Positions 1-35,875 of a DNA stretch of 37,079 nucleotides are shown here, piece by piece. This DNA comes from a virus: IMG/VR virus record IMGVR_UViG_3300020459_000034, positions 1-37,079 of that record. One strand, 5' to 3'. The notes below the pieces were generated by a model. The model was not told where the DNA came from. It was given only the letters and a program-made list of their open reading frames with translations, and ran no database searches. Position numbers and translations under genes: made by a program. Numbering within the stretch: the stretch's first letter is position 1; the number at the start of each line of letters is the position of its first letter.

Positions 1-4
1 AAAG

Positions 5-925: not shown

Positions 926-1606
926 TTACTTTTTCTCCTTTAATTCAGTTTCTTTTTTCTTGTAGTGTTCAAAAATACGAACATGTCCTTCTGGATTTGT
1001 TTCTTCAAAAAATTTTAATGCATCTGCATTGTCCATCTTCCAGGACATGAGGGCTGGCAATCTTGTTGTTTTTACAATGCCATCGATCAAGTTAGCTTCC
1101 ATTGATTTTGGATCTTGTTTTTTTATTGGAGTTTCTTTTTTTATTAGAGTTTCTTTTTTTATTGGATTGCCATCCGTATCATCACCAGATGCAAGATTTA
1201 ACATGGCTGATAAAATGTATCTTTTAAGATAAGTAATATCAGATCCCAAGCCTTGCAAATTGTTACCAGCACGAAGACTATGTTCCTCTGGCATTTCAAC
1301 AATAGATGCTGGACTAAGATGTCCATTCTCATGGATCATGTGGGCTTGTATAAAGTTACCCCTGATCATTATGTATGGTGTAAGACCACATTCTGGTCCA
1401 TGCTCTCTAAAGGCTTCTATAAGCTTGTCATAAGTAGTGTATGTATTGTTATGAGACTTGCCGTCTTTTTCAATTAACCTCATCTTGCTTTGAAACTTCA
1501 CAAGAGATGAAGCTAGATCAGGATCTATCTTATCAATTGTACTGATCATCTCAGGAGCCTTTTCATTTTCTATTTTAACTATTGGTAAATTTAGATCTGC
1601 ATTCAT
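926..1606 (-). CDS. erf: ERF-family single-strand annealing protein
   Basis: A 226-residue protein matching the ERF superfamily of phage recombinases, which bind ssDNA and anneal complementary strands during recombination or genome circularisation. Visible hallmarks are the 'NNTYTTYDKLIEAFREHG' segment (residues 53-70), the glycine-rich core 'LQGLGSDITYLKRYILSAML' (117-136) and the acidic 'GDDTDGN' (141-147). After residue 147 comes a lysine-rich linker made of six-residue repeats (LIKKET/PIKKQ), then a short C-terminal domain. It starts directly at the stop of the exonuclease gene, so the two form a synaptase/exonuclease pair analogous to lambda Bet/Exo. Length is normal for the family. Confidence 0.85.
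   Translation of the reverse strand: MNADLNLPIVKIENEKAPEMISTIDKIDPDLASSLVKFQSKMRLIEKDGKSHNNTYTTYDKLIEAFREHGPECGLTPYIMIRGNFIQAHMIHENGHLSPASIVEMPEEHSLRAGNNLQGLGSDITYLKRYILSAMLNLASGDDTDGNPIKKETLIKKETPIKKQDPKSMEANLIDGIVKTTRLPALMSWKMDNADALKFFEETNPEGHVRIFEHYKKKETELKEKK
1118..1171. repeat. Three tandem 18-bp repeats inside the ERF gene
   Basis: Units start at 1118, 1136 and 1154; each begins with seven T followed by ATTGGA or ATTAGA. On the coding (minus) strand each unit gives a six-residue IKKET-type step, forming a basic linker between the ERF core and its C-terminal tail. Poly-A/T runs of seven within each unit are prone to slippage. Confidence 0.85.
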
Positions 1607-5453: not shown

Positions 5454-5467
5454 CCTAGAGCATTTTT

Positions 5468-5588: not shown

Positions 5589-5600
5589 CAGGAGAGGACT

Positions 5601-8420: not shown

Positions 8421-8459
8421 GTCAAAAAAATTTTTAACAATACCCCAGAAGGAAAGTAA

Positions 8460-10583: not shown

Positions 10584-10584
10584 A

Positions 10585-12489: not shown

Positions 12490-12506
12490 TAGGAGAGTAA
12501 ATAAAA

Positions 12507-14391: not shown

Positions 14392-14404
14392 GGAGTAATA
14401 AAAA

Positions 14405-14833: not shown

Positions 14834-14841
14834 TAACTAAG

Positions 14842-14882
14842 AATATGGGAGGGTTGAGTTATCGCTCTCCCATATTTAATTT
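14842..14882 (+). terminator. Hairpin terminator after capsid/decoration genes
   Basis: A perfect 10-bp stem, AATATGGGAG (14842-14851) and CTCCCATATT (14867-14876), has a 15-base loop and is followed by TAATTTAA. The T run is weak, so partial termination that lowers tail-gene expression relative to capsid is likely. Confidence 0.75.
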
Positions 14883-14893
14883 AAGGATTTATT

Positions 14894-15484: not shown

Positions 15485-15486
15485 CA

Positions 15487-18509: not shown

Positions 18510-19046
18510 ATGTCAGGAATGGAACCAGCATTATTATTAGGAATAGGGGCTACTACAACTGTAGCTGGAACATACATGTCTTACAAAGGAGCCAAGAAGG
18601 CTGGTAAGATGGAACAACAGGCACAAGAATATAATGCCAAGGTTGCAGAAAGAAACTCTAGGGTTGCAAGACTTTCTAAAGAAATCACAGCAAAACAGAC
18701 TGATTTACAAATTCTTGATTTTCAAAAAGATTTTGAAAACTTTCAAGCAACTACTTCACAACAATACCGAGTAAATGGATTTCAGGCTGGAACAGGGACA
18801 CCATTAGTAGTGGCTTTAGAAAATGCCTATGAAGCAGAAAAAGAAATTGCAATACAAAAATACAATAGCAAAATAAAAGAATCTCAACTTGAAGAGCAAG
18901 CCATACAAGGTGGTATGCAAGCTGATCTTAATAGGATGTATGGAGATCAAGCTAGGACCAGAGGTAAATACCAGGCATATGGAAGTTTATTAAGTGGAGC
19001 TTCAAACCTTGCAAGCATGGGAATGCAATACAAAGCAATTACTTAG
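18510..19046 (+). CDS. Internal virion (ejection) protein, T7 gp14-like
   Basis: A 178-residue protein with a hydrophobic N-terminus (PALLLGIGATTTVAGTYMSY) followed by a long charged helical region (residues 25-150, Lys/Glu/Gln-rich) and a Gly/Ser end (YGSLLSGASNLASMGMQY). This is the profile of gp14-type ejection proteins that insert into the outer membrane during infection. It is followed nine bases later by the next internal protein gene. An AAGGAG ribosome binding site precedes ATG. Confidence 0.78.
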   Translation: MSGMEPALLLGIGATTTVAGTYMSYKGAKKAGKMEQQAQEYNAKVAERNSRVARLSKEITAKQTDLQILDFQKDFENFQATTSQQYRVNGFQAGTGTPLVVALENAYEAEKEIAIQKYNSKIKESQLEEQAIQGGMQADLNRMYGDQARTRGKYQAYGSLLSGASNLASMGMQYKAIT

Positions 19047-19055
19047 GAGAATAGA

Positions 19056-20945: not shown

Positions 20946-20947
20946 CT

Positions 20948-23869
20948 ATGTCGTTTAGCAAACTTATTAATAGCGAATATATACCAAAGCATGAAGTCGA
21001 TGCTGACAATGCTTTGATCGATGAAGGTTATAATCCACAGCATTTAAAAATTCATAACAAGTCTGTAGATCTTCAGGAGATTGCTAAATTTAGAAAAAAA
21101 GAAAAAGAAAGAAAGAGTATGTATAGGGCTGACGGAACTCTTAAATCAGACCGAGGTTTTTTAGGACCGATAACTAATAATGTTACTAATGGCACCATGA
21201 CAGAAGTTACTGTAAGTTTTGAAGATGTTTTAGATAATAAGGAAATACCACTCTTAGTACCTGGACAAAGTGCAGAAGATTTAGATTGGCTTATGAATAA
21301 CCCAATAGAAGGCAATGCACAAAACTTTCCACAAACAATGAAAGATATTGCTATTGAGCATGCAATAAAAAGAACAGAAGAAGGCAAGAGTGTTTTTTTT
21401 AACGAAAGTGATTTGTTTGAAAACTCCAGAGCTGGTGAAATTTTTCACAATTATAAAGATGAGAATGGTGTTCAGCTATGGGCTGAATCTGCTCAACGAT
21501 TATTTGGAGATCCTGATTTATTTAATAAATTTTATAAACCGATGGACAAAAATTATGATGCATCCCCAGAGGAAATTTCTGAGTGGGCTTTAGAATTTAT
21601 TGCCAGAATAGATAACAATTTAATTTACAGTGCAAGTCATTTAAGATTTTTTGACGATATAAGTAATGAATCTAAATTAGACATATATAGACTTTTAAAT
21701 ATGTATACTACATCTTCTGATGAGGATTCAGACATTGGAGTGGCAGATTTATATTATACTAAAGAAAGAGAGAGAGGTGATAAAGACAATCAATTATTTG
21801 GTTATATGGATCCTGGTACACCTCAGTTTGATGGCATTGCCTGGGATGGATTAAGTAGAGCTTTTAGAGGTATACTTACAGACGCTACAACATATGGCGG
21901 AGGATTTACTTATCACTTTGCTAAAGGCATGGCTAAAAGATATGGAGGTAAAGGAGTAACAAAAAAAATAATGGAATTTATTCTTCCAAAATTAGTCGCT
22001 GGTTTTGAAGGATCTGCCTACATGTCAGCTTATGATTATATGAATCAAGAATTTCAAATAGAAGGACAAGCTAAAAATCCAGAAACATTTGGTGGTGGAG
22101 AGATCCCAACAGATGAGACAAATCCTTTTCCAACAGAAATAAATAAAGAATCTATAGGAGCTTCAGCCGTAATGGGCTTCTTTCTTGCTCCGTTAATTGA
22201 AGCTGGTTTTGCAACACCAGGAGCAATTGACAAGCAAATTCAGAAAATAAGAAAAAAACATAATATTGCCGATGATAAACCTATTGAAGATATGGTTATT
22301 CTTCACAACACAGGAGACGAAGCTATTCTTCAATACGATGAACTTGGAGGTATACCATCACCAAGTTTAGCGGTAACAAAATCAGACCAGGTGTTTGAAG
22401 GTTTTGGAGATATTCAACTTATTGCTAAACCTAAAAATTTTGATCCAGCAGAAGATCCTAAGAATGTAATTTATGGATCTGATGCCTATACTCCTAGGAT
22501 GCCAAGAGGAGAAAATTTATTTCTTGATAATGCTGATGATTTAATAGAAGCAGATTACAGACCATTAGTAGACAAATATGGTATTGAATTTCGATACATA
22601 GATCTTGATTATGATTTAAATAATTTTAAAAACCCTACACTTTTAACACAAATTAAATTTTTAGATGAAATGGGTTATGAGAAAGAGATTAGAGAAGCCT
22701 TAGATGTTGATGTTGAAAAGATGAGAAATAAGGCAATTAAAGAATATGAAGAAAAGCTTGCTGATCCAAATACAAGACCTGATATGATTGAAACACTACA
22801 AAAAGTTTTAGAAGATACTAAAAAAGGTTTAAAAGACCAAGATCCACAATTTGTGAAAGAACAAAATATTAGAAAATTAGTAAATGAAGTTATTGGAATG
22901 GATGGACAAAAAACTATTCGTGATTTTGTAAAGAATGAAAAAACAAAATATTCTAGTCCAAGCAAAACTTTTAATACTAAAAACAAAAAAGTACAAAGAA
23001 GAATTGATAGGCTTGTTGAGTTATTAAACAGTCCATTAGTTAGGAGAGATCAAGATCTATATGAAAAATATACTCTTGAACTGGAAGAACTTGAGTTTGG
23101 AGGATCAAAATGGATGGATCTACCATTTACCTTAAATAATATTTTAGACAACATGCTAGAAGAAGTCCAAAGAGGAGGAGAAGTAGGTTTTGGATCTGGT
23201 GGTCCTAATAAAGTAAAAGCTGTGGCATCTAAATCATACAAAAGTCTTGATGAGGTAAAAGCTGATAAAGATAGAATATTATCGCCAGATGAGCAATTAT
23301 CTCAAGAAAATGCTGAAGCTGGTAAAGTAATAAATGAAGATGGATCCTTTCAAGGAAGTGAAATAGATCTTGGATATAATTGGGGTAAATTAGAAAAAAT
23401 GGTTAATAGATTTTCTGAGGGTGGTGTTGAACCAGATCAATTATATTACTCAATGATTGATGCAATACGATCTGATAGATCTGATGAAGCAATTAAAGAA
23501 GCTTTTACATATATGGGTGGAGATAATTTTGGTCCTGATGAAATACAAAGAGTTAGAAATTTTATTGAAATTTTAAGAGAAGCTCCTGTTGATTATTTTG
23601 AAGCTAAACCTCAAAGGGTTGTTTATCTTGATGAGTTTGGTGGAGCTATAGTCCATAAAAATACAGATCCAAAAGTTATTGAAATATTAGAAAAGAATGG
23701 TTTAGAAATTATTATGGAACCTCCTAACATGTCAGGTGAAAAATCTTATGATGCTAGTGGCTATCAAGATCAGTTAAGACCAAAACTTAGCAAATACTTT
23801 TTCACTGTTCCACCAGCAATTGTTGTTGGAAATGAAATAATTGACGAAAATAATAGACAGGAAAAATGA
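20948..23869 (+). CDS. Large internal virion protein with conserved N-terminal phage domain
   Basis: A 973-residue protein. Residues about 55-135 hold a domain that recurs in phage virion proteins: 'LKSDRGFLGPITNN', 'TEVTVSFEDVLDNKEIPLLV' and 'IAIEHAIKRTEEGKSVFF'. The rest is charged, with two glycine-rich, partly hydrophobic zones near 310-345 and 395-415 that may contact membrane. No lytic transglycosylase motif was visible. It sits among the ejection-protein genes and probably enters the host with the DNA. The ribosome binding site is weak (AAGG about 13 bases upstream). Confidence 0.65.
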   Translation: MSFSKLINSEYIPKHEVDADNALIDEGYNPQHLKIHNKSVDLQEIAKFRKKEKERKSMYRADGTLKSDRGFLGPITNNVTNGTMTEVTVSFEDVLDNKEIPLLVPGQSAEDLDWLMNNPIEGNAQNFPQTMKDIAIEHAIKRTEEGKSVFFNESDLFENSRAGEIFHNYKDENGVQLWAESAQRLFGDPDLFNKFYKPMDKNYDASPEEISEWALEFIARIDNNLIYSASHLRFFDDISNESKLDIYRLLNMYTTSSDEDSDIGVADLYYTKERERGDKDNQLFGYMDPGTPQFDGIAWDGLSRAFRGILTDATTYGGGFTYHFAKGMAKRYGGKGVTKKIMEFILPKLVAGFEGSAYMSAYDYMNQEFQIEGQAKNPETFGGGEIPTDETNPFPTEINKESIGASAVMGFFLAPLIEAGFATPGAIDKQIQKIRKKHNIADDKPIEDMVILHNTGDEAILQYDELGGIPSPSLAVTKSDQVFEGFGDIQLIAKPKNFDPAEDPKNVIYGSDAYTPRMPRGENLFLDNADDLIEADYRPLVDKYGIEFRYIDLDYDLNNFKNPTLLTQIKFLDEMGYEKEIREALDVDVEKMRNKAIKEYEEKLADPNTRPDMIETLQKVLEDTKKGLKDQDPQFVKEQNIRKLVNEVIGMDGQKTIRDFVKNEKTKYSSPSKTFNTKNKKVQRRIDRLVELLNSPLVRRDQDLYEKYTLELEELEFGGSKWMDLPFTLNNILDNMLEEVQRGGEVGFGSGGPNKVKAVASKSYKSLDEVKADKDRILSPDEQLSQENAEAGKVINEDGSFQGSEIDLGYNWGKLEKMVNRFSEGGVEPDQLYYSMIDAIRSDRSDEAIKEAFTYMGGDNFGPDEIQRVRNFIEILREAPVDYFEAKPQRVVYLDEFGGAIVHKNTDPKVIEILEKNGLEIIMEPPNMSGEKSYDASGYQDQLRPKLSKYFFTVPPAIVVGNEIIDENNRQEK

Positions 23870-23909
23870 ACAGATTATATTTATAGATCTGCGCAATTAA
23901 GGAGTTAAC

Positions 23910-24059
23910 ATGGCATTATCAGATCAAGAAATAGAAAACATTAAACAACGCTATGGATCCAACTCCAGGACATTTCAATTAGTAACAACAGATCCAATTG
24001 CAGATAGTGATGGATCTATTAATTTAAGACCTGAGTTAGATACAAAAAATAGTAGCTAA
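23910..24059 (+). CDS. Small hypothetical protein (49 aa)
   Basis: Starts MALSDQEIENIKQRYGSNSR and ends ELDTKNSS. AAGGAG lies 5 bases before ATG, a very good ribosome binding site. It is polar, without cysteine or membrane segment. It lies between two ejection-protein genes and directly before a strong terminator. Function unknown. Confidence 0.65.
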   Translation: MALSDQEIENIKQRYGSNSRTFQLVTTDPIADSDGSINLRPELDTKNSS

Positions 24060-24091
24060 TGTAGCGAAATCAGATTATAAAAATATATATT

Positions 24092-24116
24092 AGGATGCTT
24101 ACGCATCCTTTTTTTA
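24092..24116 (+). terminator. Strong rho-independent terminator inside the tail gene cluster
   Basis: AGGATGC (24092-24098) and GCATCCT (24103-24109) form a perfect 7-bp stem with a TTAC loop followed by seven T. It lies 10-17 bases before the next large gene, which has no visible ribosome binding site. Confidence 0.88.
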
Positions 24117-24125
24117 TACCCAAAC

Positions 24126-27100
24126 ATGAATGAAGTAGAAGAGCTGGCTTTAGACTCCGTAGCAAGTGGTGGTCCAAAAGAGGTACTTACAGAACAGGCA
24201 AACAATAATCCAGATGTCCCAGAGGTGGATCCTGTAGACACTACTGCTTTGCCTAAAGAAACTGTTAATCTTGAAGGAGAAGATATAAATCAAGATAATA
24301 CAGATCCTATAGAAATAGAACCAGTAAACGACAATATGGAAGGTAATGATGTTTATACTCCCATAGATGAGTCTGGTGGTGGTGGATTTGAAACACCAAA
24401 TACAGAGGAGCTTGAAAACCCTCTTGCAGAACTAGCAGAAGATCCAGAAGGTTATAGATATTATGGAGACTTTGAGGGTGATCTTAATGCTGAAACAGTA
24501 AATTTAGCTGGTCTTTTAAATTTTGGAAATCCCATGGAGTTTATCCAAAAAATTCCTGGTCTAAAAACATGGGCGCAAGCAAGTAAACTTTTAAATGAAA
24601 AAAAACAAGCTTTGCAAGATGAAGTTAATAGAATTAACGAAGATGTATCATTAACGGCAAAAGAGAAAACAGAAAGAATAAGAAAAATATTATCAGAGGA
24701 AGGTGTTACTTACGATTCTGATAGACTTAATTATATTAAACTTACTGATAACGATTTTATAAACGATATATCTGATACAATATATGATGATCCAGCTTTA
24801 AACGATGGTCTTATTGGAAACACAAGAATTTTTGGAAAGAAAGATGGCAAGGTAGATCCTAACAATAACAAGTTTCCAGAAGATTTATATTTTGAAGAGT
24901 CCCTTGCTTATTTGGTAAAATATTATTCCAAGGCTTTTACTGCTGAAACTGGAGGAGTAGACAAGCTCTCTTTTGATCTTATGCAGAACATAAGTGATAT
25001 TACTTTTTTAACAGACAAAAAATTCTTAAAAAGGTTATTAGCTAACAAGCCAGGTGAAATCCCTCCTATGCCATATATCTTGGCTATGAGAGATCTCTAT
25101 AATATTGAAACTCGCAAACTTAACGACATGATTGATTTAATTAGAAGTGGCGAAGATGTTAGCAATGATATGTTGTTAAAAGCTAGACAGCAATATGAAA
25201 TAGTAGCAAATGTTCAATTAAAAATATCTGGAATTAAAACTAATTTAGGTAGAGCTGTAGTGTCTTTTAGAAGACCTTCTGGTTATGGTCCTGAAGGTCA
25301 AATTGATCAAAGAACTACTAAGCCAGAAAGTTTTGAATTTAAGGGATCTGATTTAGTAGAAGACAAAGAAACCAAACTAGGTGTCATTTCTGAAGAAGAA
25401 GCTAAAGTAATGCTTGATACTTTTGGTGGTAAAGAAAACTTAATTGATTTTTTTTATAAATATCAAGATATGCCAGAAGGTCATAGAAGAAATAGATTTG
25501 CAAGAGATTATTACAGGGCAAGTAAAGACGGATCTAACATTGGTATAGAGCTAGTAAATGAGCTTTGGATTAACTCTCTTCTAAGCTTACCAGTATCGCA
25601 TATTAGAAATATACTTGGTAACGGCTTAATGATGGGAAAGCATATGATAGAAAATTATGCTTTAGGAACTGTTGGAACAATATCAGAGAAATTAGGTTTT
25701 GATTATGGTGGAATAAAGCTTGATGAAGTACACGCTTCAACTGGAGCAATGTTGCTTGCTTTCGATGAAGCTATAAGGGCTTTTTATTATGGAACAGCAC
25801 CACATGTTGGTCGTAATAATAAATTTGACGAGCTTAATAAAAACAATAACAGCTGGAGTCCAGAGACTTTTGGTTATACATCTCCAAATAACTCAATAGA
25901 TAAATCAAATGTTATGGGTTATTTTGATCCAGAAGCTCCATTAATGGCACATATGTTTAATGCTATAGGCAAAACATTTAATGCACCGACAAATATTTTA
26001 AATTCAGAAGATGTATTTTTTAAAGTTTTAGCTCAAAGATATGAAATTACCATGCTTGCTCAAAGAACAGCAAAATCAAAAGGTCTTACTGGAAGTAGTT
26101 TTTTAAATTTTGTCGCAGAATTTGTAGCAGATCCTCCATACGAAGCATTAAAAGAATCTCAAAAATTTGCAAGCTACATGACATTTCAAGAAGAGCTAGG
26201 AAAAACAGCAAAGAATGCTCAAAGTTTTATTCAATCAACTCCAATGAGATGGGCTTTGCCGTTCTTTAAAACACCATTAAATATTGCAAAAGTAACATTT
26301 GCCGAAGGATCTCCACTAGCATTTGCATCAAAAGAGTTTCGAAGAAAATTAATATCTGGTACTGCCAGAGAAAGAGAAACAGCCATAATGAGATTTGCAA
26401 GCGGTAATACTTTGTTATTTGGATCAATGATGTTTGCAAGTGGATTTACAACTGGACCTGATGGACAGCAATATCCAAATGTTAAAGCTGGTACTTTAAA
26501 ATCACAATGGAAAGATAATAAAAGGGTTGCAAGAACTGTGGATGCTTTAGAATATGCTCCTGAATATTCTATATTAAGATTTGATGGGGAAGGTAAACCA
26601 TACTATATGCCAATAAGAGGTTTAGAGCCTTTTTCATCATGGCTTATGCTTGGTATGGATTTACATAAAATAACAAGCTCTCCAGAAATTTATGCTGATA
26701 ACGAAGGTGATGTTATGCAACTTATGCTCGCATCTGCTTTGGCTATTGAAAATGCAGTCTTAAACAAAACATTCGCTTCAGGAGCAGATCAATTTATAAA
26801 AGCTATTTTTGAACCAGAAAGATATGGTGAAAAATATATTCAAAATTTAGTAGCTTCTTTTATTCCAAATATTTTTAGAGCTGGAGCAAAAGTGGCAGAT
26901 CCAACAATGCGACAAACTATGAACATGAGAGATAAATTCATGATGTCTATACCTGGTTTAAAAGACAATCTAATTCCTAGGATGGATTTACATGGTCGTG
27001 AATTAAAAGAAGGAAAAGAAGGTTTAAGACAAATGTGGAGTCCATTTGCAAGCAAATCTTTTACCCCTGAAAATTTAACAAATTTGCAAAAGGATTGGAA

Positions 27101-27494
27101 ATTATTTGGAGGAGGACCAACTCTTGTAAAACCAAAGTTTCAACATAATGGTGTAACAATAGATTTTTATAAAGAAGATGATGGAGGTGATCTTTATGTG
27201 TTTTTGCAAAAGTATTATGCAAAAAATTACAACAGAATAATTGAGAGAAAATTAAGATCAGATAGGGATTATCGAATGAACAAAAAAAGGTTTGTTCTAA
27301 GCAACAAAACAGATCTTAACGCTAGAGATAGATGCATTGAACTAGCTCAAGGTTATGTAAGAAAATTAAGAAACGCAGATTTAAAAAAACTTTTGGCAAA
27401 CCCAAGAAGGTACGGACCTGAAGCTGTTCGTATAAGGCAAATTTATATGAAAGGATTAAGAGAAAATAAACTATTAGAAAGGCAAGGTTACTAA
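24126..27494 (+). CDS. Large internal virion (ejection) protein, T7 gp16-like
   Basis: A 1122-residue protein. Residues 1-115 are acidic and disordered. The middle is helical. The C-terminal half has the gp16-like pattern of marine podoviruses, e.g. 'SLLSLPVSHIRNILGNGLMM', 'ALPFFKTPLNIAKVTFAEGS', 'DQFIKAIFEPERYGEKYIQN' and 'SFIPNIFRAGAKVADPTMR'. It probably forms the inner part of the DNA-ejection channel. No Shine-Dalgarno is seen before ATG at 24126, and a terminator lies immediately upstream, so its expression is odd. A later start is possible, but no internal ATG in the first 120 codons has a better site. Confidence 0.75.
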   Translation: MNEVEELALDSVASGGPKEVLTEQANNNPDVPEVDPVDTTALPKETVNLEGEDINQDNTDPIEIEPVNDNMEGNDVYTPIDESGGGGFETPNTEELENPLAELAEDPEGYRYYGDFEGDLNAETVNLAGLLNFGNPMEFIQKIPGLKTWAQASKLLNEKKQALQDEVNRINEDVSLTAKEKTERIRKILSEEGVTYDSDRLNYIKLTDNDFINDISDTIYDDPALNDGLIGNTRIFGKKDGKVDPNNNKFPEDLYFEESLAYLVKYYSKAFTAETGGVDKLSFDLMQNISDITFLTDKKFLKRLLANKPGEIPPMPYILAMRDLYNIETRKLNDMIDLIRSGEDVSNDMLLKARQQYEIVANVQLKISGIKTNLGRAVVSFRRPSGYGPEGQIDQRTTKPESFEFKGSDLVEDKETKLGVISEEEAKVMLDTFGGKENLIDFFYKYQDMPEGHRRNRFARDYYRASKDGSNIGIELVNELWINSLLSLPVSHIRNILGNGLMMGKHMIENYALGTVGTISEKLGFDYGGIKLDEVHASTGAMLLAFDEAIRAFYYGTAPHVGRNNKFDELNKNNNSWSPETFGYTSPNNSIDKSNVMGYFDPEAPLMAHMFNAIGKTFNAPTNILNSEDVFFKVLAQRYEITMLAQRTAKSKGLTGSSFLNFVAEFVADPPYEALKESQKFASYMTFQEELGKTAKNAQSFIQSTPMRWALPFFKTPLNIAKVTFAEGSPLAFASKEFRRKLISGTARERETAIMRFASGNTLLFGSMMFASGFTTGPDGQQYPNVKAGTLKSQWKDNKRVARTVDALEYAPEYSILRFDGEGKPYYMPIRGLEPFSSWLMLGMDLHKITSSPEIYADNEGDVMQLMLASALAIENAVLNKTFASGADQFIKAIFEPERYGEKYIQNLVASFIPNIFRAGAKVADPTMRQTMNMRDKFMMSIPGLKDNLIPRMDLHGRELKEGKEGLRQMWSPFASKSFTPENLTNLQKDWKLFGGGPTLVKPKFQHNGVTIDFYKEDDGGDLYVFLQKYYAKNYNRIIERKLRSDRDYRMNKKRFVLSNKTDLNARDRCIELAQGYVRKLRNADLKKLLANPRRYGPEAVRIRQIYMKGLRENKLLERQGY

Positions 27495-27495
27495 A

Positions 27496-30400
27496 ATGAC
27501 ATTATCAACAACATCAAACAAAGTATCGTTTTCAGGAAATGGATCTACAACTGTTTTTGCTTACAACTTTAAGATATTAGCAAACTCAGATTTAAAGGTT
27601 TATATAAGATCTGCTACTGGGACCGAAACATTAAAGACAATATCAACTCACTACAATGTGTCAGGAGTAGGATCTGCTTCTGGTGGTAATGTAACTTTTA
27701 CTGGTGGCAATACACCAACTAATACCGAGACTGTTATTATACAAAGAGTAGTAGCTTTAACTCAAACCCATGATTATGTTGAAAACGATCCTTTCCCAGC
27801 CGAGTCTCACGAAGAAGGTTTAGATCGTCTCACAATGCATGTGCAACAGATCCAGGAAGAAGTCGATAGATCTATTAAAGCTTCTGTTACAAATACTATT
27901 TCTTCTTCAGAATTTTCTAACTCACCAACAGACAGAGCAAACAAAATATTCGGCTTTGATTCTACTGGTGATATTTCCGTTACAACAAATATTGGGACCA
28001 ATAGAGGTAACTGGGCTTCTGGCACAGATTATAATGAAAGAGATCTTGTCAAAGACACATCCACAAATAATGTCTTTCAGGTTAACACAACACACACATC
28101 CTCTGGGTCCCAGCCCCTAACATCTAATGCTAACTCAGCTAAATATACATTGCTTGTTGATAGTGCTTCGGCATCTACTAGCGCAACAGCTTCGGCTAAT
28201 TCTGCGACAGCTTCCGCTACTTCAGCTACAGCTTCCGCTTCTTCAGCGACAGCTAGTGCGAGTAGTGCAACACAATCAGCCAACTCTGCAACGGCTTCTG
28301 CTGGATCTGCTACAACAGCATCTAATCATGTTTCAACTGCAAGCGGTCATGTTACAACAGCGTCTAATCATAAAACTACATCTCAACGATTTGCTACGCA
28401 TACAGGATCAACTGTAACGGATGCTAATACTGGAAGTGATACAGGCTTATACTCTGCTAAACATTATGCAGACTTGGCTGAAACAAAACTAGATAATTTT
28501 GATGACACATATTTAGGAAGTAAAAGCTCTGCACCAACAGTGGACAATGATGGTGATGCTTTAGCGACAGGAGCATTATATTGGAACTCGTCAAATAATA
28601 ATTTATATGTATGGAATGGATCGGCTTGGGTGCAAGGAGCATTTAGCTCTGGTGGCTTCTTATCAACTGGAAACAATTTATCTGATTTAACTAACCCTGG
28701 AAATGCTAGAACTAATTTAGGTTTAGGAACATCTGCCGTTTTAAATGTTGGAACAAGTGCAAATAATATTCCTCAACTTGATGGTAATGCAAAACTACCA
28801 GCAGTCGATGGATCACAGTTAACTGGTCTAGCTTCTGGCGGTACTATCAACATGACTATTGGCTCTGGATCAAGTGCGGTTAGTGCTGGTACATCAGTAA
28901 CTAGAGAAACAAATGGCGAAGCAAAAAAAATAGAAATATCCACAACGACCACAAACAATACCTTTGCCACGACATCTGTTTCTACTGCTATACCAGCAAT
29001 TAGCTCAAGAACATCTACAACTAATAATAGTGCTGATATTGGTGCATCATGTGATGGTCGATATTTAATGGCTTTTAACACTTACCAAACTAGCAATGGT
29101 CAATACAATTATTGGTATCTTCAATCATTTGTTTGTGATAATAGCGGTGGTTTTACTGCTAGTACACCTACTCAAGTACAAAGTTATGGTCAATTTGGAC
29201 AGTACGGACATAATGCTAGGCAAGGTAATTTTAGAATTGAATATTTAAAAAGTGTTAACTCGGATGCTGGCGGTACATTCCTGTGCAATAGTTTGTATGG
29301 AGCTGGTTATGGTCAATATGGTGGTAATAGAATATTTTACTTTATTACTGTGGATGACGCTGGTGGAATTACTGTCGTACACCAAAGAAATATTGGTAAT
29401 GATATGCTTACGCAAGAGGGAACTTATTATAATAATTCTGGTGGATTTTGTTCATTTGATTATGGAGTACACGCTATAAGTGGAAACACATTTAAGTTAA
29501 TTGCTCATGGTTGTTATTCACATACTCAAGATTGGGTAGGTCATTTTAGTAAAAATCATTTAGTAGAATGGTCTGTTACTTGGAATGGTAGCTCATATGC
29601 TCTTACAAAAACAAGAGGTCGCCATCAAACAAGTGAAAACCCAACGAGTATGTCAGCCAATTATCATGGGGAAATGATGATTATACCTAATGGTGGTAGT
29701 AATGGAAATGAGGTGAATATTATAACTTTCGGAAGTGCTGGTAGTACATCAGGGAGTAATGTTTATAGAAATAGATATACTTATAGCGGAACAGATACAT
29801 TTCAAAGAAATTCTAATACATCAGTCGTCAGTAGTATAGGTAATAGAGATGGTAGAAGGATGAAAGCTATACATGGTAAGTTTTGTGGTTTCCTAGCTAT
29901 GGGATTTAACACGAGTGGTCAAAGCTCTAATCAAGCAATTAAGAGTGTTGATTATTATGGTAATTTTGATACTGATGTTCAAGGCTTTGTAAGTAATGGT
30001 GGTGATGCACCAAATGGAAAGTATGATTATATTAATAATGAACTTGTAACTACTGGAGATACTGCGTCTCGTAAAGGCTTTAACAATCATATAAGTAGCT
30101 ATCCCATTTCTTCAACAGATAATGGTGCCTCAATAACTGTTGGTACTCCAACTAATGTAAGCGATAGTGTTAATAATCACTCAGGTTCATCAAACTCTAC
30201 ACAAGCTTATAAGTATCAGCACGCATTAGGTTTTGCTGGAGCTTCAGTTTCCCTTATTGGTGAAACAAGTTTAGATGGACCATATGCTCAAAAAGGTAGA
30301 TTTTGGCTTTATGCAACTGGCAATGGTGCTGGTCAGCCATCTCTTACAGGATATAAAGCTGGTGTTATGAAACTAACCACCAATGTCACGGCTACAAACA

Positions 30401-31242
30401 AAGCCAAGTTTTTTGGTTTTGCTCAAGAAGCTGGATCAGCTGGAAGCTCTATTAAAGTTATGCCTAATGATACCGAAGGGCTAGAAAGTAATGTTAGTGG
30501 TTTGACACATGGTACTACTTATTATGTGGCTGATAATGGAACACTAACTTCAAGTGCTGGAACAGATAATCCTTTGGCTGGTCAATCTATAGGAACAGGG
30601 GCATTAAGACTACCAACAAAGTCTGTATCTGCTGGAAGTGGTTCTGATCCAGAAGTATTTTGTAGTGCTATAAATGTAAAAACTGAAGGTACACCAGCAA
30701 CTTTTACTTTATCAATACCAAACTCAATAACTGCCAGCAATGTAAGGTCTTATGTTATTCGATTTTACGGAGTAGGTTTTAGTACAAATACTGGTTATAA
30801 TTGTAGGTTTAAACCATACAATGGTGGTTATAGTGTTTTAAGTGGAAACACTTGGTATAACAATATTCACTACGCTTACAATGGTCAATCCAATCAAGTA
30901 TCATATAATAATTGGTCTTCCTATCTAAGCCCAGCTCAATGGGGTGGGGAAAACATAGCCTATGGTGGTAATACTTACACAATTCAAGATTATGATAGTG
31001 CTGATGAAAGCCCAAGATTGTCTGGTGAAATTTGGTATGAAAATAATAAAAAAAATGGTGGTTATAGATGGAGGTCAGAAGGAAGATACTCAGCAGACAA
31101 TAATGACTTATACATTGAGCATGGTGTTGCTGGAGCTTCTGGAGGAGAGACAACTTCTAACTATGCTGATGCCTTTTATTTTTACACCAGTAGTGGAACT
31201 TATCAGGAAGGCATATTTGTTTTATACGCAGTAACAAAATAG
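27496..31242 (+). CDS. Tail fibre protein with T7 gp17-type N-terminus
   Basis: A 1248-residue receptor-binding fibre. Residues 1-135 match the T7 tail-fibre N-terminal attachment domain ('KVSFSGNGSTTVFAYNFKIL', 'HDYVENDPFPAESHEEGLDR', 'QQIQEEVDRSI'). Residues about 221-295 are Ser/Ala/Thr heptads of SATASAx type. Then come 'GLYSAKHYADLAETKLDNFD' and a 'GALYWNSSNNNLYVWNGSAW' module common in phage fibres. The part from about residue 460 to the end is Gly/Ser/Tyr/Asn-rich beta structure, likely the receptor-binding tip. GATC content and Gly-Ser codons change sharply near base 28,870, suggesting the distal part was acquired separately. Confidence 0.88.
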   Translation: MTLSTTSNKVSFSGNGSTTVFAYNFKILANSDLKVYIRSATGTETLKTISTHYNVSGVGSASGGNVTFTGGNTPTNTETVIIQRVVALTQTHDYVENDPFPAESHEEGLDRLTMHVQQIQEEVDRSIKASVTNTISSSEFSNSPTDRANKIFGFDSTGDISVTTNIGTNRGNWASGTDYNERDLVKDTSTNNVFQVNTTHTSSGSQPLTSNANSAKYTLLVDSASASTSATASANSATASATSATASASSATASASSATQSANSATASAGSATTASNHVSTASGHVTTASNHKTTSQRFATHTGSTVTDANTGSDTGLYSAKHYADLAETKLDNFDDTYLGSKSSAPTVDNDGDALATGALYWNSSNNNLYVWNGSAWVQGAFSSGGFLSTGNNLSDLTNPGNARTNLGLGTSAVLNVGTSANNIPQLDGNAKLPAVDGSQLTGLASGGTINMTIGSGSSAVSAGTSVTRETNGEAKKIEISTTTTNNTFATTSVSTAIPAISSRTSTTNNSADIGASCDGRYLMAFNTYQTSNGQYNYWYLQSFVCDNSGGFTASTPTQVQSYGQFGQYGHNARQGNFRIEYLKSVNSDAGGTFLCNSLYGAGYGQYGGNRIFYFITVDDAGGITVVHQRNIGNDMLTQEGTYYNNSGGFCSFDYGVHAISGNTFKLIAHGCYSHTQDWVGHFSKNHLVEWSVTWNGSSYALTKTRGRHQTSENPTSMSANYHGEMMIIPNGGSNGNEVNIITFGSAGSTSGSNVYRNRYTYSGTDTFQRNSNTSVVSSIGNRDGRRMKAIHGKFCGFLAMGFNTSGQSSNQAIKSVDYYGNFDTDVQGFVSNGGDAPNGKYDYINNELVTTGDTASRKGFNNHISSYPISSTDNGASITVGTPTNVSDSVNNHSGSSNSTQAYKYQHALGFAGASVSLIGETSLDGPYAQKGRFWLYATGNGAGQPSLTGYKAGVMKLTTNVTATNKAKFFGFAQEAGSAGSSIKVMPNDTEGLESNVSGLTHGTTYYVADNGTLTSSAGTDNPLAGQSIGTGALRLPTKSVSAGSGSDPEVFCSAINVKTEGTPATFTLSIPNSITASNVRSYVIRFYGVGFSTNTGYNCRFKPYNGGYSVLSGNTWYNNIHYAYNGQSNQVSYNNWSSYLSPAQWGGENIAYGGNTYTIQDYDSADESPRLSGEIWYENNKKNGGYRWRSEGRYSADNNDLYIEHGVAGASGGETTSNYADAFYFYTSSGTYQEGIFVLYAVTK
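28160..28380 (+). repeat. Ser/Ala/Thr heptad repeat region of the tail fibre
   Basis: About ten degenerate 21-bp units encode seven-residue steps (SATASAN, SATASAT, SATASAS and variants, then HVTTASN-like steps). Such repeats form trimeric shafts in fibres and can change length by recombination. Confidence 0.75.
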
Positions 31243-31251
31243 GAAAAAATT

Positions 31252-31530
31252 ATGGCTAAAGAATTAGTATACGATGCTTTATTAAAAAAAGAGGTAGAGA
31301 TTGAGGTTGATAATCAAGAAGATCCTAACCTTGAACAAAACCTTATCAATGCAAAAAAATCTCAGAGAAATGCTCTTTTAAATAGTAGTGATTGGACAAT
31401 GGTTAATGATAGTAAACTTTCGGATGAACAGACTGCGGAAGCGACTACCTATCGACAATCATTAAGAGATCTACCAGATCAGGAAGGTTTTCCAGATATT
31501 GATTTTCCAACTAAACCAGATTTCATATAG
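31252..31530 (+). CDS. Tail fibre assembly chaperone-like protein
   Basis: A 92-residue protein. Its second half, 'RNALLNSSDWTMVNDSKLSD' followed by 'YRQSLRDLP' and 'GFPDIDFPTKP', matches the phage tail assembly chaperone family (R..LL..sDWt....s.ls.e....w..YRq.LRd.p....fP...wP). These helpers are usually next to fibre genes. It follows the fibre stop by nine bases. Confidence 0.8.
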   Translation: MAKELVYDALLKKEVEIEVDNQEDPNLEQNLINAKKSQRNALLNSSDWTMVNDSKLSDEQTAEATTYRQSLRDLPDQEGFPDIDFPTKPDFI

Positions 31531-31539
31531 GAGGACAAA

Positions 31540-31992
31540 ATGAGATTAGCAACATTAAAAGAAAATAATCAAATCGTGGCTATAGCCCAAGACACAGTTA
31601 CGATTGCTTTTAACGGAGACTTTAATCAATTAGCTTTGACTGGTGACAGAACATTTAAAGAAGTTATTGGTGTTGATGACAATGGTAAGCCCATTTATGA
31701 AGAACAATTAATTGAAGGAACAGAATTTCCATACCTTCAATTTGCTGGTTATACAGAAGACAATATTAATGTCTTTGAAGGTATTGATGATAGTGAAGCC
31801 CCTGATGGATTAATAGAAGACAGATGGTCTTATACAGAAGAAAAAGGTTTTTATGTTTCAGATGCCTATTTTGAAGAAGAAGGAACTAACGCAGAAGGTC
31901 ATAGATATATAAAATATTCTGATGGATTTTTGCATACCTTTTATGATCATGGCGAGCATGAAGGTTTTATAACCTTTGAAATAGAAAACTAA
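31540..31992 (+). CDS. Hypothetical acidic protein after fibre chaperone
   Basis: A 150-residue, acidic, beta-rich protein beginning MRLATLKENNQIVAIAQDTV. AGGAGG sits 6 bases before ATG. The repeated aromatic/acidic segments (DRWSYTEEKGFYVSDAYFEE; YSDGFLHTFYDHGEHEGF) suggest a fibre-associated or small virion protein. Family not recognised. Its stop overlaps the next ATG by one base. Confidence 0.6.
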   Translation: MRLATLKENNQIVAIAQDTVTIAFNGDFNQLALTGDRTFKEVIGVDDNGKPIYEEQLIEGTEFPYLQFAGYTEDNINVFEGIDDSEAPDGLIEDRWSYTEEKGFYVSDAYFEEEGTNAEGHRYIKYSDGFLHTFYDHGEHEGFITFEIEN

Positions 31993-32186
31993 TGCCTAGA
32001 ACAACTGTTGCAGATATAGACAAGAAAGTAGCTGTTCTCGAACAAGCTCTTAAAGATCACCAACGATCATGTGAAAGTTTATCAATAGAAACTTTGAGTA
32101 GAGTAAAAAGACTAGAGTACCTTTTATTTGCAACATTGTTTTCGGTCCTAGGTGGGACTGTTTTAGTCGTAGTACAAAATATATAA
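31992..32186 (+). CDS. XhlA-like membrane protein (possible holin component)
   Basis: A 64-residue protein: an N-terminal helix with heptad character (IDKKVAVLEQALKDHQRSCE, then ETLSRVKRLEYL) and one C-terminal transmembrane segment (LLFATLFSVLGGTVLVVVQNI region). This is the form of haemolysin XhlA-type phage proteins linked to host lysis. Its ATG overlaps the preceding stop. It opens a run of four membrane or exported proteins that probably make up the lysis cassette. Confidence 0.6.
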   Translation: MPRTTVADIDKKVAVLEQALKDHQRSCESLSIETLSRVKRLEYLLFATLFSVLGGTVLVVVQNI

Positions 32187-32195
32187 GGAGAGATT

Positions 32196-32333
32196 ATGAA
32201 ATATTTTTTAACAATAATGATTGCTGTTTTAATTACAGCATGTGCCGAGCCAGGCAGTGTTAATGTTTCTACTGTAACACCAGCAGAAACAGATCTAAAA
32301 ATAACAATTGAATCAACAAGCGCAAAAGACTAA
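32196..32333 (+). CDS. Small lipoprotein, possible Rz1-like outer spanin
   Basis: Read by eye, 45 residues: MKYFLTIMIAVLITACAEPG. It has a short positive N-terminus, a hydrophobic core and a lipobox LITAC with Cys16 as the lipidation site, leaving a mature peptide of 30 residues. AAGGAGAG precedes ATG, and the stop abuts the next ATG. Short lipoproteins in lysis cassettes often act as outer-membrane spanins. Rz1 proteins are usually proline-rich and this one is not, so the spanin role is tentative. Confidence 0.6.
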   Translation: MKYFLTIMIAVLITACAEPGSVNVSTVTPAETDLKITIESTSAKD

Positions 32334-32771
32334 ATGTTCTCAATCCTTGGAAGCTTGATAGGCTTCGCTGGATCTACTGTTCCCTCCATCATAGACATTT
32401 TTAAAGCTAAACAAGAAAACGCTTTTAAATTAAAGATGCTGGAAGCCCAGGCTAAATACAAAGTACAAGAACAGAAAGCTAAAACAGATACAGCAGAAGT
32501 AGCTGGTGTCTATGCGCATTCACAAACAATACAATCTAAAGCAAGCAAGTGGTCCGTAACTTTAAGCTCTACTGTAAGACCAGTAGTAACTTATATGATT
32601 ATTATTTTATGGCTGTCTGTAAAGCTACTTGCTGTGGTCCAGCTCTACATGGATGGCGGTGAATTATACAAAGTAATAGATAAGATCTTTACCGATTACG
32701 ATGCTGGTTTGATGTCGAGCATTTGTTGTTTCTGGTTTGGATCCAGATCTATTGAGAAGATGAGAAAGTAA
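32334..32771 (+). CDS. Holin-like membrane protein (GTA 3TM-type)
   Basis: A 145-residue protein. The N-terminus is hydrophobic (MFSILGSLIGFAGSTVPSII), then comes a charged helix (FKAKQENAFKLKMLEAQAKY). A strong membrane segment follows (RPVVTYMIIILWLSVKLLAV) and a C-terminal 'ICCFWFGSRSIEKM'. This order resembles the 3TM holins of gene-transfer agents and marine phages, which permeabilise the inner membrane. No Shine-Dalgarno is obvious, but it starts right after the lipoprotein stop. Confidence 0.65.
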   Translation: MFSILGSLIGFAGSTVPSIIDIFKAKQENAFKLKMLEAQAKYKVQEQKAKTDTAEVAGVYAHSQTIQSKASKWSVTLSSTVRPVVTYMIIILWLSVKLLAVVQLYMDGGELYKVIDKIFTDYDAGLMSSICCFWFGSRSIEKMRK

Positions 32772-32772
32772 T

Positions 32773-33339
32773 ATGATGGATAAAATTATTGATGCAATAA
32801 AAGGAATAATATCACCAGAGCAATCTTGGTCCGCTTTTGTAATGAAAATTACAAGCCTTATTATTGTCGCTGTAATTGGATATATAGGCTTTCAACAATA
32901 CCTCAGTCTTGGTGTTGAAGAAGATACTGAGATCCCAATAGTAGAAGTGTACGAGAACGATCCTGAGAAGAAAGTTAGAGTAGAGGATCTTATGACAAGG
33001 CTTCTAAGATCTGACAGAGATATTGATTCAATCTGGTTATATGATTGGGTAGATGCCAGAAACATTGTTCCATTATTTACTGAGCCAAGAAACAGCGCAG
33101 ATCTATTACCAACAGGATATTGGATGGAAGGTGACGAATATGTCATCGGTCATTTTGTTTTAAGTCAATGTACTTCTCTTGATAGAGATGTACCAAACAT
33201 TGCATGCCCTATAATGTCATCTGAAGATGCCTGGGGAGTTTTGTTAGTAACATATCGAGATGGTGTAACGCCTGATTTGAAAACTACAAAAGCAACAGCA
33301 ATGAAAATTTCAGAAGTTTTATATTTAATAACTAGATAA
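32773..33339 (+). CDS. Membrane-anchored protein with possible GAF-like periplasmic domain
   Basis: A 188-residue protein (start ATGATG; the second ATG at 32776 is also possible). One transmembrane helix near residues 25-46 (MKITSLIIVAVIGYIGFQQY) is followed by a soluble domain with two cysteines. The 'LMTRLLRSDRDIDSIWLYDW' start and 'AWGVLLVTYRDG...KISEVL' end loosely resemble a GAF fold; this is pattern recognition only. It sits where an endolysin would be expected, but no lysozyme, amidase or peptidase motif is visible. Confidence 0.55.
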   Translation: MMDKIIDAIKGIISPEQSWSAFVMKITSLIIVAVIGYIGFQQYLSLGVEEDTEIPIVEVYENDPEKKVRVEDLMTRLLRSDRDIDSIWLYDWVDARNIVPLFTEPRNSADLLPTGYWMEGDEYVIGHFVLSQCTSLDRDVPNIACPIMSSEDAWGVLLVTYRDGVTPDLKTTKATAMKISEVLYLITR

Positions 33340-33352
33340 AAGGGAGGTTATC

Positions 33353-33385
33353 ATGGATAGAAATTTAAAGGCAGATACAGGATAA
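33353..33385 (+). other. Ten-codon open frame with strong ribosome binding site
   Basis: AGGGAGG lies 5 bases before ATG, then MDRNLKADTG and a stop. The site is better than those of many real genes here, but the peptide is only ten residues. It may be a leader peptide or the remnant of a broken gene. Confidence 0.3.
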
Positions 33386-33407
33386 AATTAAACTTAGTTA
33401 GTTTATT

Positions 33408-33578
33408 TTGTCACATAGCTGGAAGCTAATCACAGTCAACATAATAAGTTTAATATGTGTCTTTAGTTTCAATTATTTCATCCATGAGAGAGTCTCAATG
33501 ACTTCGACTGATGTTTGTGTTGCATCGTGTAGTCGAAGAAGAAAATTAACCAACGAGTTAGACGATACAGATATGTAA
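33408..33578 (+). CDS. Possible small membrane protein (TTG start)
   Basis: The frame is open from 33402 to the stop at 33576-33578. With TTG at 33408 it encodes 56 residues: a short start, a hydrophobic segment (ITVNIISLICVFSFNYF), then a polar tail with two cysteines and an RRRK cluster. No Shine-Dalgarno is visible before TTG. An ATG at 33498 would give only 26 residues without the membrane part. It lies in an otherwise gene-free stretch of the lysis region. The membrane helix is the only support for coding. Confidence 0.35.
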   Translation: MSHSWKLITVNIISLICVFSFNYFIHERVSMTSTDVCVASCSRRRKLTNELDDTDM

Positions 33579-33590
33579 TGAGGAGAGTAC

Positions 33591-33776
33591 ATGAATACAG
33601 TATTAACATTTGCTAAGAGAGAAATATTTGGATGTACAGAATGTGGATCTATTGATTTCAATATTGAAGCCGAACAGCATTTAGATGAGCAAAAAATTAG
33701 CCAGCTAATATGTTCTAATTACGATTGCAGAACTGTTTATAGAATGAGTGATGATATAGACATAGAGACTAACTAA
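33591..33776 (+). CDS. Small zinc-ribbon-like protein
   Basis: A 61-residue protein with two cysteine knuckles: CTEC (residues 15-18) and CSNYDC (about 41-46), spaced as in a zinc ribbon. AGGAGAG sits 4 bases before ATG. The stop overlaps the start of the phosphoesterase by one base, so they are probably co-expressed. It may bind nucleic acid or protein; no specific partner is evident. Confidence 0.7.
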   Translation: MNTVLTFAKREIFGCTECGSIDFNIEAEQHLDEQKISQLICSNYDCRTVYRMSDDIDIETN

Positions 33777-34927
33777 TGGTTAAATCTACAAACTCAATGA
33801 GTTTTGAAGAAGCTGAAGATCTTGTTACTAAGGGTAGTCAAGTAGGTAGAAACAAAACTTGGAAGAAGCAATCAGATCTTGCTTTATCTATGGACCTTAC
33901 TCTTGATCAATTAAAAGGTAGATTAAAGTCAGCTAGGCATATTATTAAAATGCAAAGGGATGAAACAGATCACCAGCATTATACAATCCCTGGTCTTGAA
34001 AAAATGTCAGACCATGAAGAGATGTCTGCCGAAGAAATTATTTCTTATGCTCATCAAAATTGGAAAAAGAAAAAAGAAAAAGATGATCTACTTGAGCTAG
34101 TCCCTATAAAGTTTTCTAAGGATATTGTTACAGGCATATGCGTATGGGGTGATCCACATTTAGACGATGGAGGGGCAAATTGGGATGTCCTTACATCCTT
34201 AATGGAAACCTTAAAAAAATATGATCCAGATAGAGGATCTGAAGATCCAATCTATTCAGTAAACATTGGAGACTCTCACAACAATTGGATAGGAAGACTA
34301 AGCAGATATTACATTGAACAAAAAATGACTAAGTCGATGGTGTACAAAGTCATTGAACATTTAATTGAAGAAATTAATTTTATCTTATTAATTAGAGGTA
34401 ATCACGACATGTGGGATCCGAGTAATATTAACTATGATAAGATGGATTGGTTTGCACAAGCATCTGGAACACTTGCAGTAGATTGGAGAGCTAATATAGA
34501 TTTTCAATTTCCAAATGGAGTATCAGTCAAAGCCGATTTTCGCCATAATTTTTCTGGGACTTCGATGTACAATCCGCTACATGGAATGCAGAAAGCAAAC
34601 TTGTTTAACACTAATGCAGATATATATGTGGCTGGACATTTACATAATTATGCAACTATGGAAATGCCATCAACAAACAAATCAAATTATGAATCAGGGT
34701 TTAAATCACCAGCACATTTGTTAAGAGTAAAAGGATTTAAAGATATAGATTCATATGCTGATCAACATGGTTTTCCCAGACAAGATTACGGACATGCTGG
34801 ACTGATTGTAATAGATCCATTTACAACTCAACAGAACAGAATAAAGATCTACAGCGACATAGAATATGGAGCTAATATGATTAGATTATTAAATGACGAT
34901 TATAGAAAAAAAGGAACAATTAAATGA
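33776..34927 (+). CDS. Calcineurin-like metallophosphoesterase
   Basis: A 383-residue protein. The five metal-site motifs are all visible: D-x-H at D126/H128 (WGDPHLDDGG), GD at D166 (NIGDSHNN), GNHD at residues 208-211, a His in 'ADFRHNFSG' and GHLH with H288/H290. The first 110 residues form a helical N-terminal region with a possible helix-turn-helix-like segment (QSDLALSMDLTLDQLKGRLK). Such enzymes in phages may act on nucleic acids or nucleotides; the substrate is not shown by sequence. It overlaps the gene before by one base and the gene after by four. Confidence 0.88.
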   Translation: MVKSTNSMSFEEAEDLVTKGSQVGRNKTWKKQSDLALSMDLTLDQLKGRLKSARHIIKMQRDETDHQHYTIPGLEKMSDHEEMSAEEIISYAHQNWKKKKEKDDLLELVPIKFSKDIVTGICVWGDPHLDDGGANWDVLTSLMETLKKYDPDRGSEDPIYSVNIGDSHNNWIGRLSRYYIEQKMTKSMVYKVIEHLIEEINFILLIRGNHDMWDPSNINYDKMDWFAQASGTLAVDWRANIDFQFPNGVSVKADFRHNFSGTSMYNPLHGMQKANLFNTNADIYVAGHLHNYATMEMPSTNKSNYESGFKSPAHLLRVKGFKDIDSYADQHGFPRQDYGHAGLIVIDPFTTQQNRIKIYSDIEYGANMIRLLNDDYRKKGTIK

Positions 34928-35115
34928 CAACATTATTAGGATCTTCACAAAGAAAAAGGAAGCAAGGACAAACTGCTGGAGTAGGTGGATCTGCTTTACC
35001 AAGTGGAACAAAATCTAATTCACCAGCTCAAAGAATTGCTGATCGTGGTAAGACAAAAGGCGTAGTCAGAACATCTGCACAGCCAAAGAAAAAACAAAAA
35101 AAATCTAACTATTAA
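34924..35115 (+). CDS. Small basic hypothetical protein (63 aa)
   Basis: Starts MTTLLGSSQRKRKQGQTAGV and is Lys/Arg/Gln/Ser-rich to the end, probably disordered and perhaps DNA-binding. It overlaps the phosphoesterase stop by four bases (ATGA). Its TLLGSS start recalls the TLVGS ends of two other proteins of this phage. It is the last gene before the attP-like region. Confidence 0.55.
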   Translation: MTTLLGSSQRKRKQGQTAGVGGSALPSGTKSNSPAQRIADRGKTKGVVRTSAQPKKKQKKSNY

Positions 35116-35345
35116 AAAGGTCGCAGTCACAGATTAACCCTTTCGTGACTGCACTCGTGACTGCATTCTACGGATCAATAGGAGTCATTGTGTTTCACTA
35201 AATGCTTGTAATGTGCGCTAAATGAGACTACAAGACACTATTCAAGGGGTTCGATTCCCCTAGGGACTACCATCTCTAAGCCGTTGTTTTATAACGATAA
35301 TCACTTAAAAAAACTCTCTGTGACTCCGTCTGTGACTCCATATTT
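35116..35345. other. attP: Putative phage attachment site (attP)
   Basis: A 346-base non-coding stretch next to the integrase gene begins here. Its core is a tRNA 3'-end: a T-arm AGGGG-TTCGATT-CCCCT (35245-35261), an acceptor 3' strand, discriminator A and CCA ending at 35272. No 5' half of the tRNA is present. Arm-type repeats flank it: GTGACTGC at 35145-35152 and 35157-35164, with an inverted copy at 35123-35130, on the left; GTGACTCC at 35320-35327 and 35332-35339 on the right. Both direct pairs have 12-bp spacing. This is the architecture of a tyrosine-integrase attP. Confidence 0.75.
35221..35272 (+). other. tRNA 3'-end-like fragment (attP core)
   Basis: Contains a complete T-stem/loop and CCA end. 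The acceptor strand AGGGACT would pair with AGTCCCT, which does not occur nearby, so this is not a functional tRNA. Counting back gives a U33-like T and a 5-base variable loop, but the implied anticodon is not convincing, so host identity probably starts inside this fragment. A tmRNA 3' end cannot be excluded. Confidence 0.7.
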
Positions 35346-35351
35346 TCTGCG

Positions 35352-35383
35352 ATTTTCCGAAGATTTTATTTCTCTCGGAAAAT
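35352..35383. repeat. Perfect 9-bp inverted repeat beside attP
   Basis: ATTTTCCGA (35352-35360) and TCGGAAAAT (35375-35383) are separated by a T-rich 14 bases. It lies between the right arm repeats and the promoter of the YodL-like gene. It could be a protein site or a weak hairpin; no T run follows. Confidence 0.55.
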
Positions 35384-35390
35384 TCCCCTG

Positions 35391-35437
35391 TTGACAGGTA
35401 CGGCTATATTGGTGTAGTTTGTCTTTGTAAGTCAAAC
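35391..35437 (+). promoter_or_regulatory. Promoter and operator of the YodL-like/integrase genes
   Basis: A perfect -35 TTGACA (35391-35396), an 18-base spacer and a poor -10 TAGTTT (35415-35420). An inverted repeat with 8 of 9 matches, GTTTGTCTT (35417-35425) / AAGTCAAAC (35429-35437), overlaps the -10 and start region. Its right half is the same AAGTCAA element as at the repressor promoter, suggesting repressor control of integration genes. Confidence 0.6.
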
Positions 35438-35464
35438 ATATCAATTAACATATAGGAGGAAATG

Positions 35465-35875
35465 ATGGGTTACAGAATATATCAAATAGACAGAGAGTGG
35501 AGAAAAAGTTTAGGTGAGGATTGGAGAAAGCATGACTTGTCCTACATCGAATTTTCTAGCAGAGGAAATCTAGCAGATAGATGGAAGCCAGAATATTTGG
35601 ATCACTATAAACATGTTGTTTCATTAAATGTTTCAGACATAGATTTATGGGATGTTTATAGAACATTAAATGTTCATGCATTCTATCAAGACGATCAAGA
35701 CATTTATGAAAATGTTATCTCTGATTACGAAACAAAAACTGTTGAAAGAGATGGTGAAGAAATTACATACAAAATGTATCACTCTTTAAGCATCGGAGAT
35801 ATTGTTGAAGATCTTGAGACTGGTAAAAAGTTTATTCTGCATGAAGACTTTGTAGACTTAAAGGAGATTAACTAA
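35465..35875 (+). CDS. YodL-like protein upstream of integrase
   Basis: A 136-residue protein. The C-terminal 'YHSLSIGDIVEDLETGKKFI' leading to 'DFVDLKEI' fits the YodL-like family (SlSvGDiv....g..y......GF..i), common in phages and conjugative elements but of unknown function. Start: ATGATG; the second ATG at 35465 lies 5 bases from AGGAGG, a better spacing than the first at 35462. Its TAA shares one base with the integrase ATG, so the pair is translationally coupled. Confidence 0.65.
   Translation: MGYRIYQIDREWRKSLGEDWRKHDLSYIEFSSRGNLADRWKPEYLDHYKHVVSLNVSDIDLWDVYRTLNVHAFYQDDQDIYENVISDYETKTVERDGEEITYKMYHSLSIGDIVEDLETGKKFILHEDFVDLKEIN

Follow-up and report, generated by a model that had tools for sequence, protein, structure and literature searches.

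Metaviromic islands of marine phages, HTVC010P-type pelagiphages included, are marked by variable fibre C-termini (PMC3909814). Rad52-like recombinases, Erf included, recombine diverged sequences and thereby generate mosaics in temperate phages (De Paepe et al. 2014, PMC3945230), and some pelagiphage clades are strongly depleted of GANTC, a word methylated in Pelagibacter (PMC9516812). Fibre-tip swaps are well known, but the route that a tip has travelled usually becomes traceless after sequence divergence. The locus described here lies in a 37,079-bp stretch of DNA (the window), a phage record with T7-like structural genes. As in the metaviromic islands, its fibre C-terminus and neighbouring recognition genes vary in otherwise similar genomes; the islands, however, were observed by read recruitment, whereas here a cassette is traced across unrelated backbones, with linker boundaries and a mismatch in word usage as additional features. 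The window also encodes an Erf-type protein, although relaxed recombination was shown in E. coli phages and is suggested here by gene content and linker similarity alone. GANTC depletion was genome-wide in the pelagiphages, in contrast to the single GANTC-free cassette of the present GANTC-tolerant genome. Tip swaps are events of a known kind; less expected is that the cassette and its genome differ in the words they avoid. It is probable that the distal fibre is a mobile modular cassette among marine phages that still shows the word avoidance of its previous carriers.

The portal protein of the window is ~53-57% identical to those of HTVC010P, HTVC034P, Lederberg and Skadi, its tail tubular protein B belongs to family phrog_376, and residues 1-140 of its fibre share 58-69% identity with HTVC010P-type pelagiphages. 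These three homologies, in the portal, in tail tubular protein B and in the fibre N-terminus, place the phage among the HTVC010P-type podoviruses. SAR11 is its likely host, the host being known only for cultured relatives. No DNA-level relative was found among named phages. A near-twin, G006, has an identical portal (100%) and DNA identities of 92% over 1-19292 and 90% over 31985-35467, followed in backbone relatedness by G004 and then G002. Against this near-twin, the entire internal-virion-protein and fibre region (19300-32000) is hypervariable, beyond the fibre tip. A large virion-gene product encoded at 20948-23869 carries a PBECR5 domain (Barnase/EndoU/ColicinE5-like nuclease) at residues 447-553. 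The features of the fibre locus are as follows.

27496..31242, plus strand: tail fibre gene, 1248 aa; open reading frame whose N-terminus matches PHROG tail-fibre families and HTVC010P-type fibres
27496..27915, plus strand: residues 1-140, the virion-anchoring N-terminus, resident in the lineage; 92-96% amino-acid identity to G006 and G008
27916..28335, plus strand: Ser/Ala-rich shaft, along which the closest relative shifts from L007/L009 to L004, L001 and L005 in turn (60-nt identity bins)
28486..28875, plus strand: conserved linker 1, residues 331-460, common to fibres with different tips and to GATC-free phages
28619..28871, plus strand: linker GATC sites 28619, 28811 and 28868, retained in relatives with other tips
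28876..30375, plus strand: tip body, residues 461-960, a probable sialidase-type beta-propeller (low-confidence model), GATC-free within a 1,566-bp gap
30376..30615, plus strand: conserved linker 2, residues 961-1040; 84-92% identity in L005, L002 and the GATC-free L033
30616..31239, plus strand: C-terminal domain, residues 1041-1248, assorting independently; another version in G006, G004 and L033
31252..31530, plus strand: phage tail assembly chaperone (PF16778), adjoining every complete tip type
31540..31992, plus strand: gene of 150 aa, confined to the clade of this tip body (window, G005, L070, G002, L033)
27958..32310, no strand: GANTC desert, 4,352 bp between sites, the genome's longest, covering the whole cassette
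28330..32119, no strand: cassette inferred to be exchanged; ~79% DNA identity to G005, most of whose backbone proteins are 20-44% identical
926..1606, minus strand: Erf-type single-strand annealing protein (PF04404), a candidate for recombining linkers that have diverged

Modular exchange of fibre parts is evident when tips and backbones are compared. The tip body of G006 is unrelated to that of the window despite the near-twin backbone; because divergence between the two covers 19.3-32.0 kb, the tip belongs to a wider stretch of variation. The closest tip belongs to G005, a distant phage whose fibre gene and next two genes share ~79% DNA identity with the window (27492-32119) and whose other proteins are mostly 20-44% identical. 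Its tip is just ~65% identical to that of the window, and the actual donor has therefore not been found. L033/G010, whose contig is GATC-free, combines a different fibre N-terminus with homologues of the linker, the body, the chaperone and the partner gene. In the tip tree, the window groups with G005 and G002 with L033, which conflicts with the backbone order, and the partner gene at 31540-31992 tracks the tip clade rather than the backbone. Tip and backbone thus have conflicting histories, and the distal fibre is a horizontally exchanged module. The C-terminal domain exists in another version common to G006, G004 and L033 (57-60%). No match to the 150-aa gene was found in Pfam or PHROG; it is probably a tip-specific accessory or chaperone. 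Acquisition of the tip by recombination, as proposed in the initial annotation, is right in substance, on tip and backbone evidence that goes beyond GATC, but what was acquired exceeds the tip, taking in the tail-assembly chaperone as well as gene 31540-31992 and extending over ~28.3-32.1 kb. Tip homologues were not found in bacterial genomes. The tip body is all-beta in a structure model of low confidence (mean pLDDT 55), and Foldseek searches with such models returned mostly sialidases as top matches (best E 3e-6, TM 0.3-0.5). Receptor binding by the tip is suggested by its position and variability.

The junction had been placed at the GATC step at 28872, near residue 460, yet identity to a G005-like source starts at ~28.33 kb, ~540 bp upstream. 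Residues 1-140 of the window are nearest to G006 and G008, whereas from residue ~281 onwards the nearest relative is G005, with 88-95% DNA identity up to residue 380. The linker GATCs at 28406, 28619, 28811 and 28868 are common to L005, L002 and L001, and three of the four also occur in L004 and L036, whose tips differ. Because these sites sit in a piece common to relatives with different tips, GATC is not a junction marker; the step at 28872 is the end of a conserved linker and the start of a variable body, with no new junction in the window phage. In the GATC-free L081, three of the linker sites read GTTC (GGA-TC to GGT-TC), which is in keeping with GATC purging by synonymous change. Positions 28756-28815 of linker 1 are 96-98% identical in four relatives. 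In the identity profiles, peaks at linkers 1 and 2 show exchange at conserved stretches and place the approximate breakpoints in this flanking sequence.

The GATC counts themselves agree with those first made by eye: exactly two sites in 28872-31319 (30434 and 30646), 23 in 6601-8460, and 13 rather than about a dozen in the first 1,375 bp of the fibre gene, although the range overruns the gene, which ends at 31242, by 77 bp. The window contains 266 GATC, and its longest gap is 1,566 bp (28868-30434), the runner-up being 818 bp. At the plain rate ~17 sites are expected in 28872-31319; the plain comparison with 6601-8460 exaggerates the contrast, that stretch being one of the GATC-richest. Amino-acid composition, considered from the outset as a possible cause, explains the depletion in part: a model that preserves protein and codon usage predicts 5.2-5.8 sites in the tip against 2 seen (P ~0.03; Poisson P 0.07), and 1.8 in the tip body, where none is seen (P 0.14). 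One main source of GATC, an Asp codon next to a codon that starts with C, is used a single time in the tip. Composition accounts for most of the shortfall. Relative to the codon model, GATC is enriched ~1.5-fold across the genome (O/E 1.49), which makes ~9 sites a fair expectation for the tip, against which 2 remain low (P ~0.006). The shortfall is real but modest, and what is left after composition is weak, the desert having been chosen post hoc inside one genome. The claim that Gly-Ser pairs are nearly all GGA-TCT in other late genes is overstated (34/62), but the absence of this codon pair from the tip holds (0/10; Fisher P 0.001), and GGA-TCN is used in 47/62 pairs elsewhere in the late genes versus 1/10 in the tip (Fisher P 0.0001). 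Relatives share the low GATC content to a degree: pooled over six phages, O/E is 0.48 in tips versus 1.47 elsewhere. Low GATC is thus general to these tips and therefore dates no single event. Two other signs of foreignness were set aside: synonymous codon usage, which in the tip is ordinary for the genome (z -0.1) and speaks against the exchanged-cassette reading, and the dinucleotide signature, in which the tip is the most atypical window (rank 1 of 116 windows of 2.4 kb), an oddity that its Gly/Ser/Asn-rich protein could itself cause.

Distinct avoidance sets are found in the different phage lineages. ACGT (0/35 expected), GGCC (0/33) and CCGG (0/17) are absent from the window; G009 has no GATC (0/57), ACGT (0/18) or GCGC (0/19) and hardly any GGCC; G002 wholly or nearly lacks ACGT, CCGG and GCGC (0/15) and uses GGCC (62/53 expected); G005 avoids GANTC almost completely, with 2 in 25 kb, although its tip itself contains one. 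Such lineage-specific gaps in palindromes look like restriction avoidance. The suggested source without a GATC habit is supported, in that homologous tips occur in phages lacking the excess (G005, O/E 0.98; L033/G010, 0.00; L088, 0.31), and receptor-binding parts are thus common to phages with opposite GATC regimes, from none to a 1.5-fold excess.

The cassettes do not match the genomes in which they reside. Relative to its own genome, the window cassette contains 0 GANTC against 5.5 expected, 10 GATC against 18 and 0 GCGC against 3.4, a depletion that is modest on its own (GANTC P 0.004, GATC P 0.03). The G004 cassette lacks GANTC (0/7.4 expected), that of G006 is poor in GATC (2/14.5) and GCGC (0/4.8), and that of G002 lacks GGCC (0/5.9). 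Over 12 tests in four related phages, the words that other carriers avoid (GATC, GANTC, GCGC, GGCC) are depleted with a Fisher combined P of 3e-10; these tests are partly dependent through the related tips of the window, G005 and G002, and both words and cassette limits were picked after inspection from few, partly related cassettes. Other palindromes in the same cassettes are not depleted (90 tests, P 0.81). Non-palindromic words gave P 0.02 over 476 tests, and two of them, AGAT and GGAC, are as strongly depleted in the window cassette. GANTC is absent from L036 (0/10.0 expected) and L091 (0/9.2), tip relatives of G004 that were checked after its GANTC-free cassette had been seen. For the cassette, GANTC is a more telling word than GATC. 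Residue 995 is the sole synonymous site in the tip that is informative on scrubbing of GGCC after entry from G005, too little for a judgement.

That the desert is a product of amino-acid composition and chance, the tip having few GATC-capable residue pairs and its longest gap having been picked by eye, is unlikely, even though the codon model leaves 5-6 expected sites in the tip and the synonymous codon usage there is not foreign. In a sliding count, the tip has the lowest value among 506 overlapping coding windows of 789 codons (O/E 0.36; median 1.41), and six pooled tips contain 17 GATC versus 52 expected at own-genome rates, a discrepancy not seen for non-avoided palindromes. GANTC is missing as well, and the evidence for mosaicism is independent of word counts. 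The composition account has already been weakened by the pooled data.

Vertical inheritance of the tip with fast divergence under receptor pressure, which would produce low identity to G006 without any exchange, is very improbable. Fibre tips do evolve fast, and identity between the window and G006 drops across 19-28 kb as well, but three distant phages, G005, G002 and the GATC-free L033, are far closer to the window in the tip than G006 is, and gene 31540-31992 goes with the tip clade. Direct selection against GATC or GANTC in any tip, whatever its carriers, for example through methylation effects on late expression, would fit the GATC poverty of several tip types. It is nevertheless improbable: the missing words differ, being GANTC in the window and G004, GATC and GCGC in G006, and GGCC in G002, and the tips of G002 and G004 are near neutral in GATC.

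The exchanged-cassette reading, which is preferred, would involve a unit of ~28.3-32.1 kb comprising tip body, C-terminal domain, assembly chaperone and 150-aa partner gene, moving between marine phages whose genomes are otherwise unrelated. Crossovers would fall in conserved stretches, namely shaft and linker 1 (residues ~280-460) and linker 2 (961-1040). The Erf-type annealing protein, tolerant of diverged homology, is a plausible agent, fitting because of the work on Rad52-like recombinases (PMC3945230) and its presence at 926-1606. Each lineage avoids its own set of short, presumably restriction-type words, and a freshly acquired cassette may keep the set of its former carriers before adopting the word usage of the new genome. 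The window cassette is GANTC-free and GATC-neutral as in G005-like phages, which may point to the direction of transfer; the genome around it contains GANTC and has GATC in excess. The GATC desert would be the visible part of this mismatch, made starker by the residue composition of the tip body.

A wider reading, put forward tentatively, is that mobile receptor-binding cassettes lack the restriction-type words avoided by former carriers, and hence defended by their hosts, and so form a readable record. If true, the missing words of a tip could reveal between which phage and host lineages receptor-binding modules are exchanged, and would indicate the class of donor even when the donor is unsampled. 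Receptor exchange would be tied to a restriction landscape that goes unseen in uncultured marine bacteria.

Further observations concern GATC usage across the phages. Backbone genes of the window, G006, G004 and G002 over-use GATC ~1.5-fold relative to codon usage, and over-use is much less or absent in eight named pelagiphage isolates (0.85-1.23). No methyltransferase that might explain the tolerated GATC was detected among window ORFs scanned with Pfam (small ORFs in part). The marine phage contigs L030 (0/46 expected), L031, L032, L028 and L033 contain no GATC, and L049 nearly none. Tail proteins of the GATC-free phages match mostly PHROG families that are uncharacterised, with a single weak match to a Rhizobium phage. 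ACGT and GCGC are also absent or nearly so from G009, G010 and L031. A partial C5 cytosine methylase is encoded, together with a PDDEXK nuclease, by L079, which shares its contig with L030.
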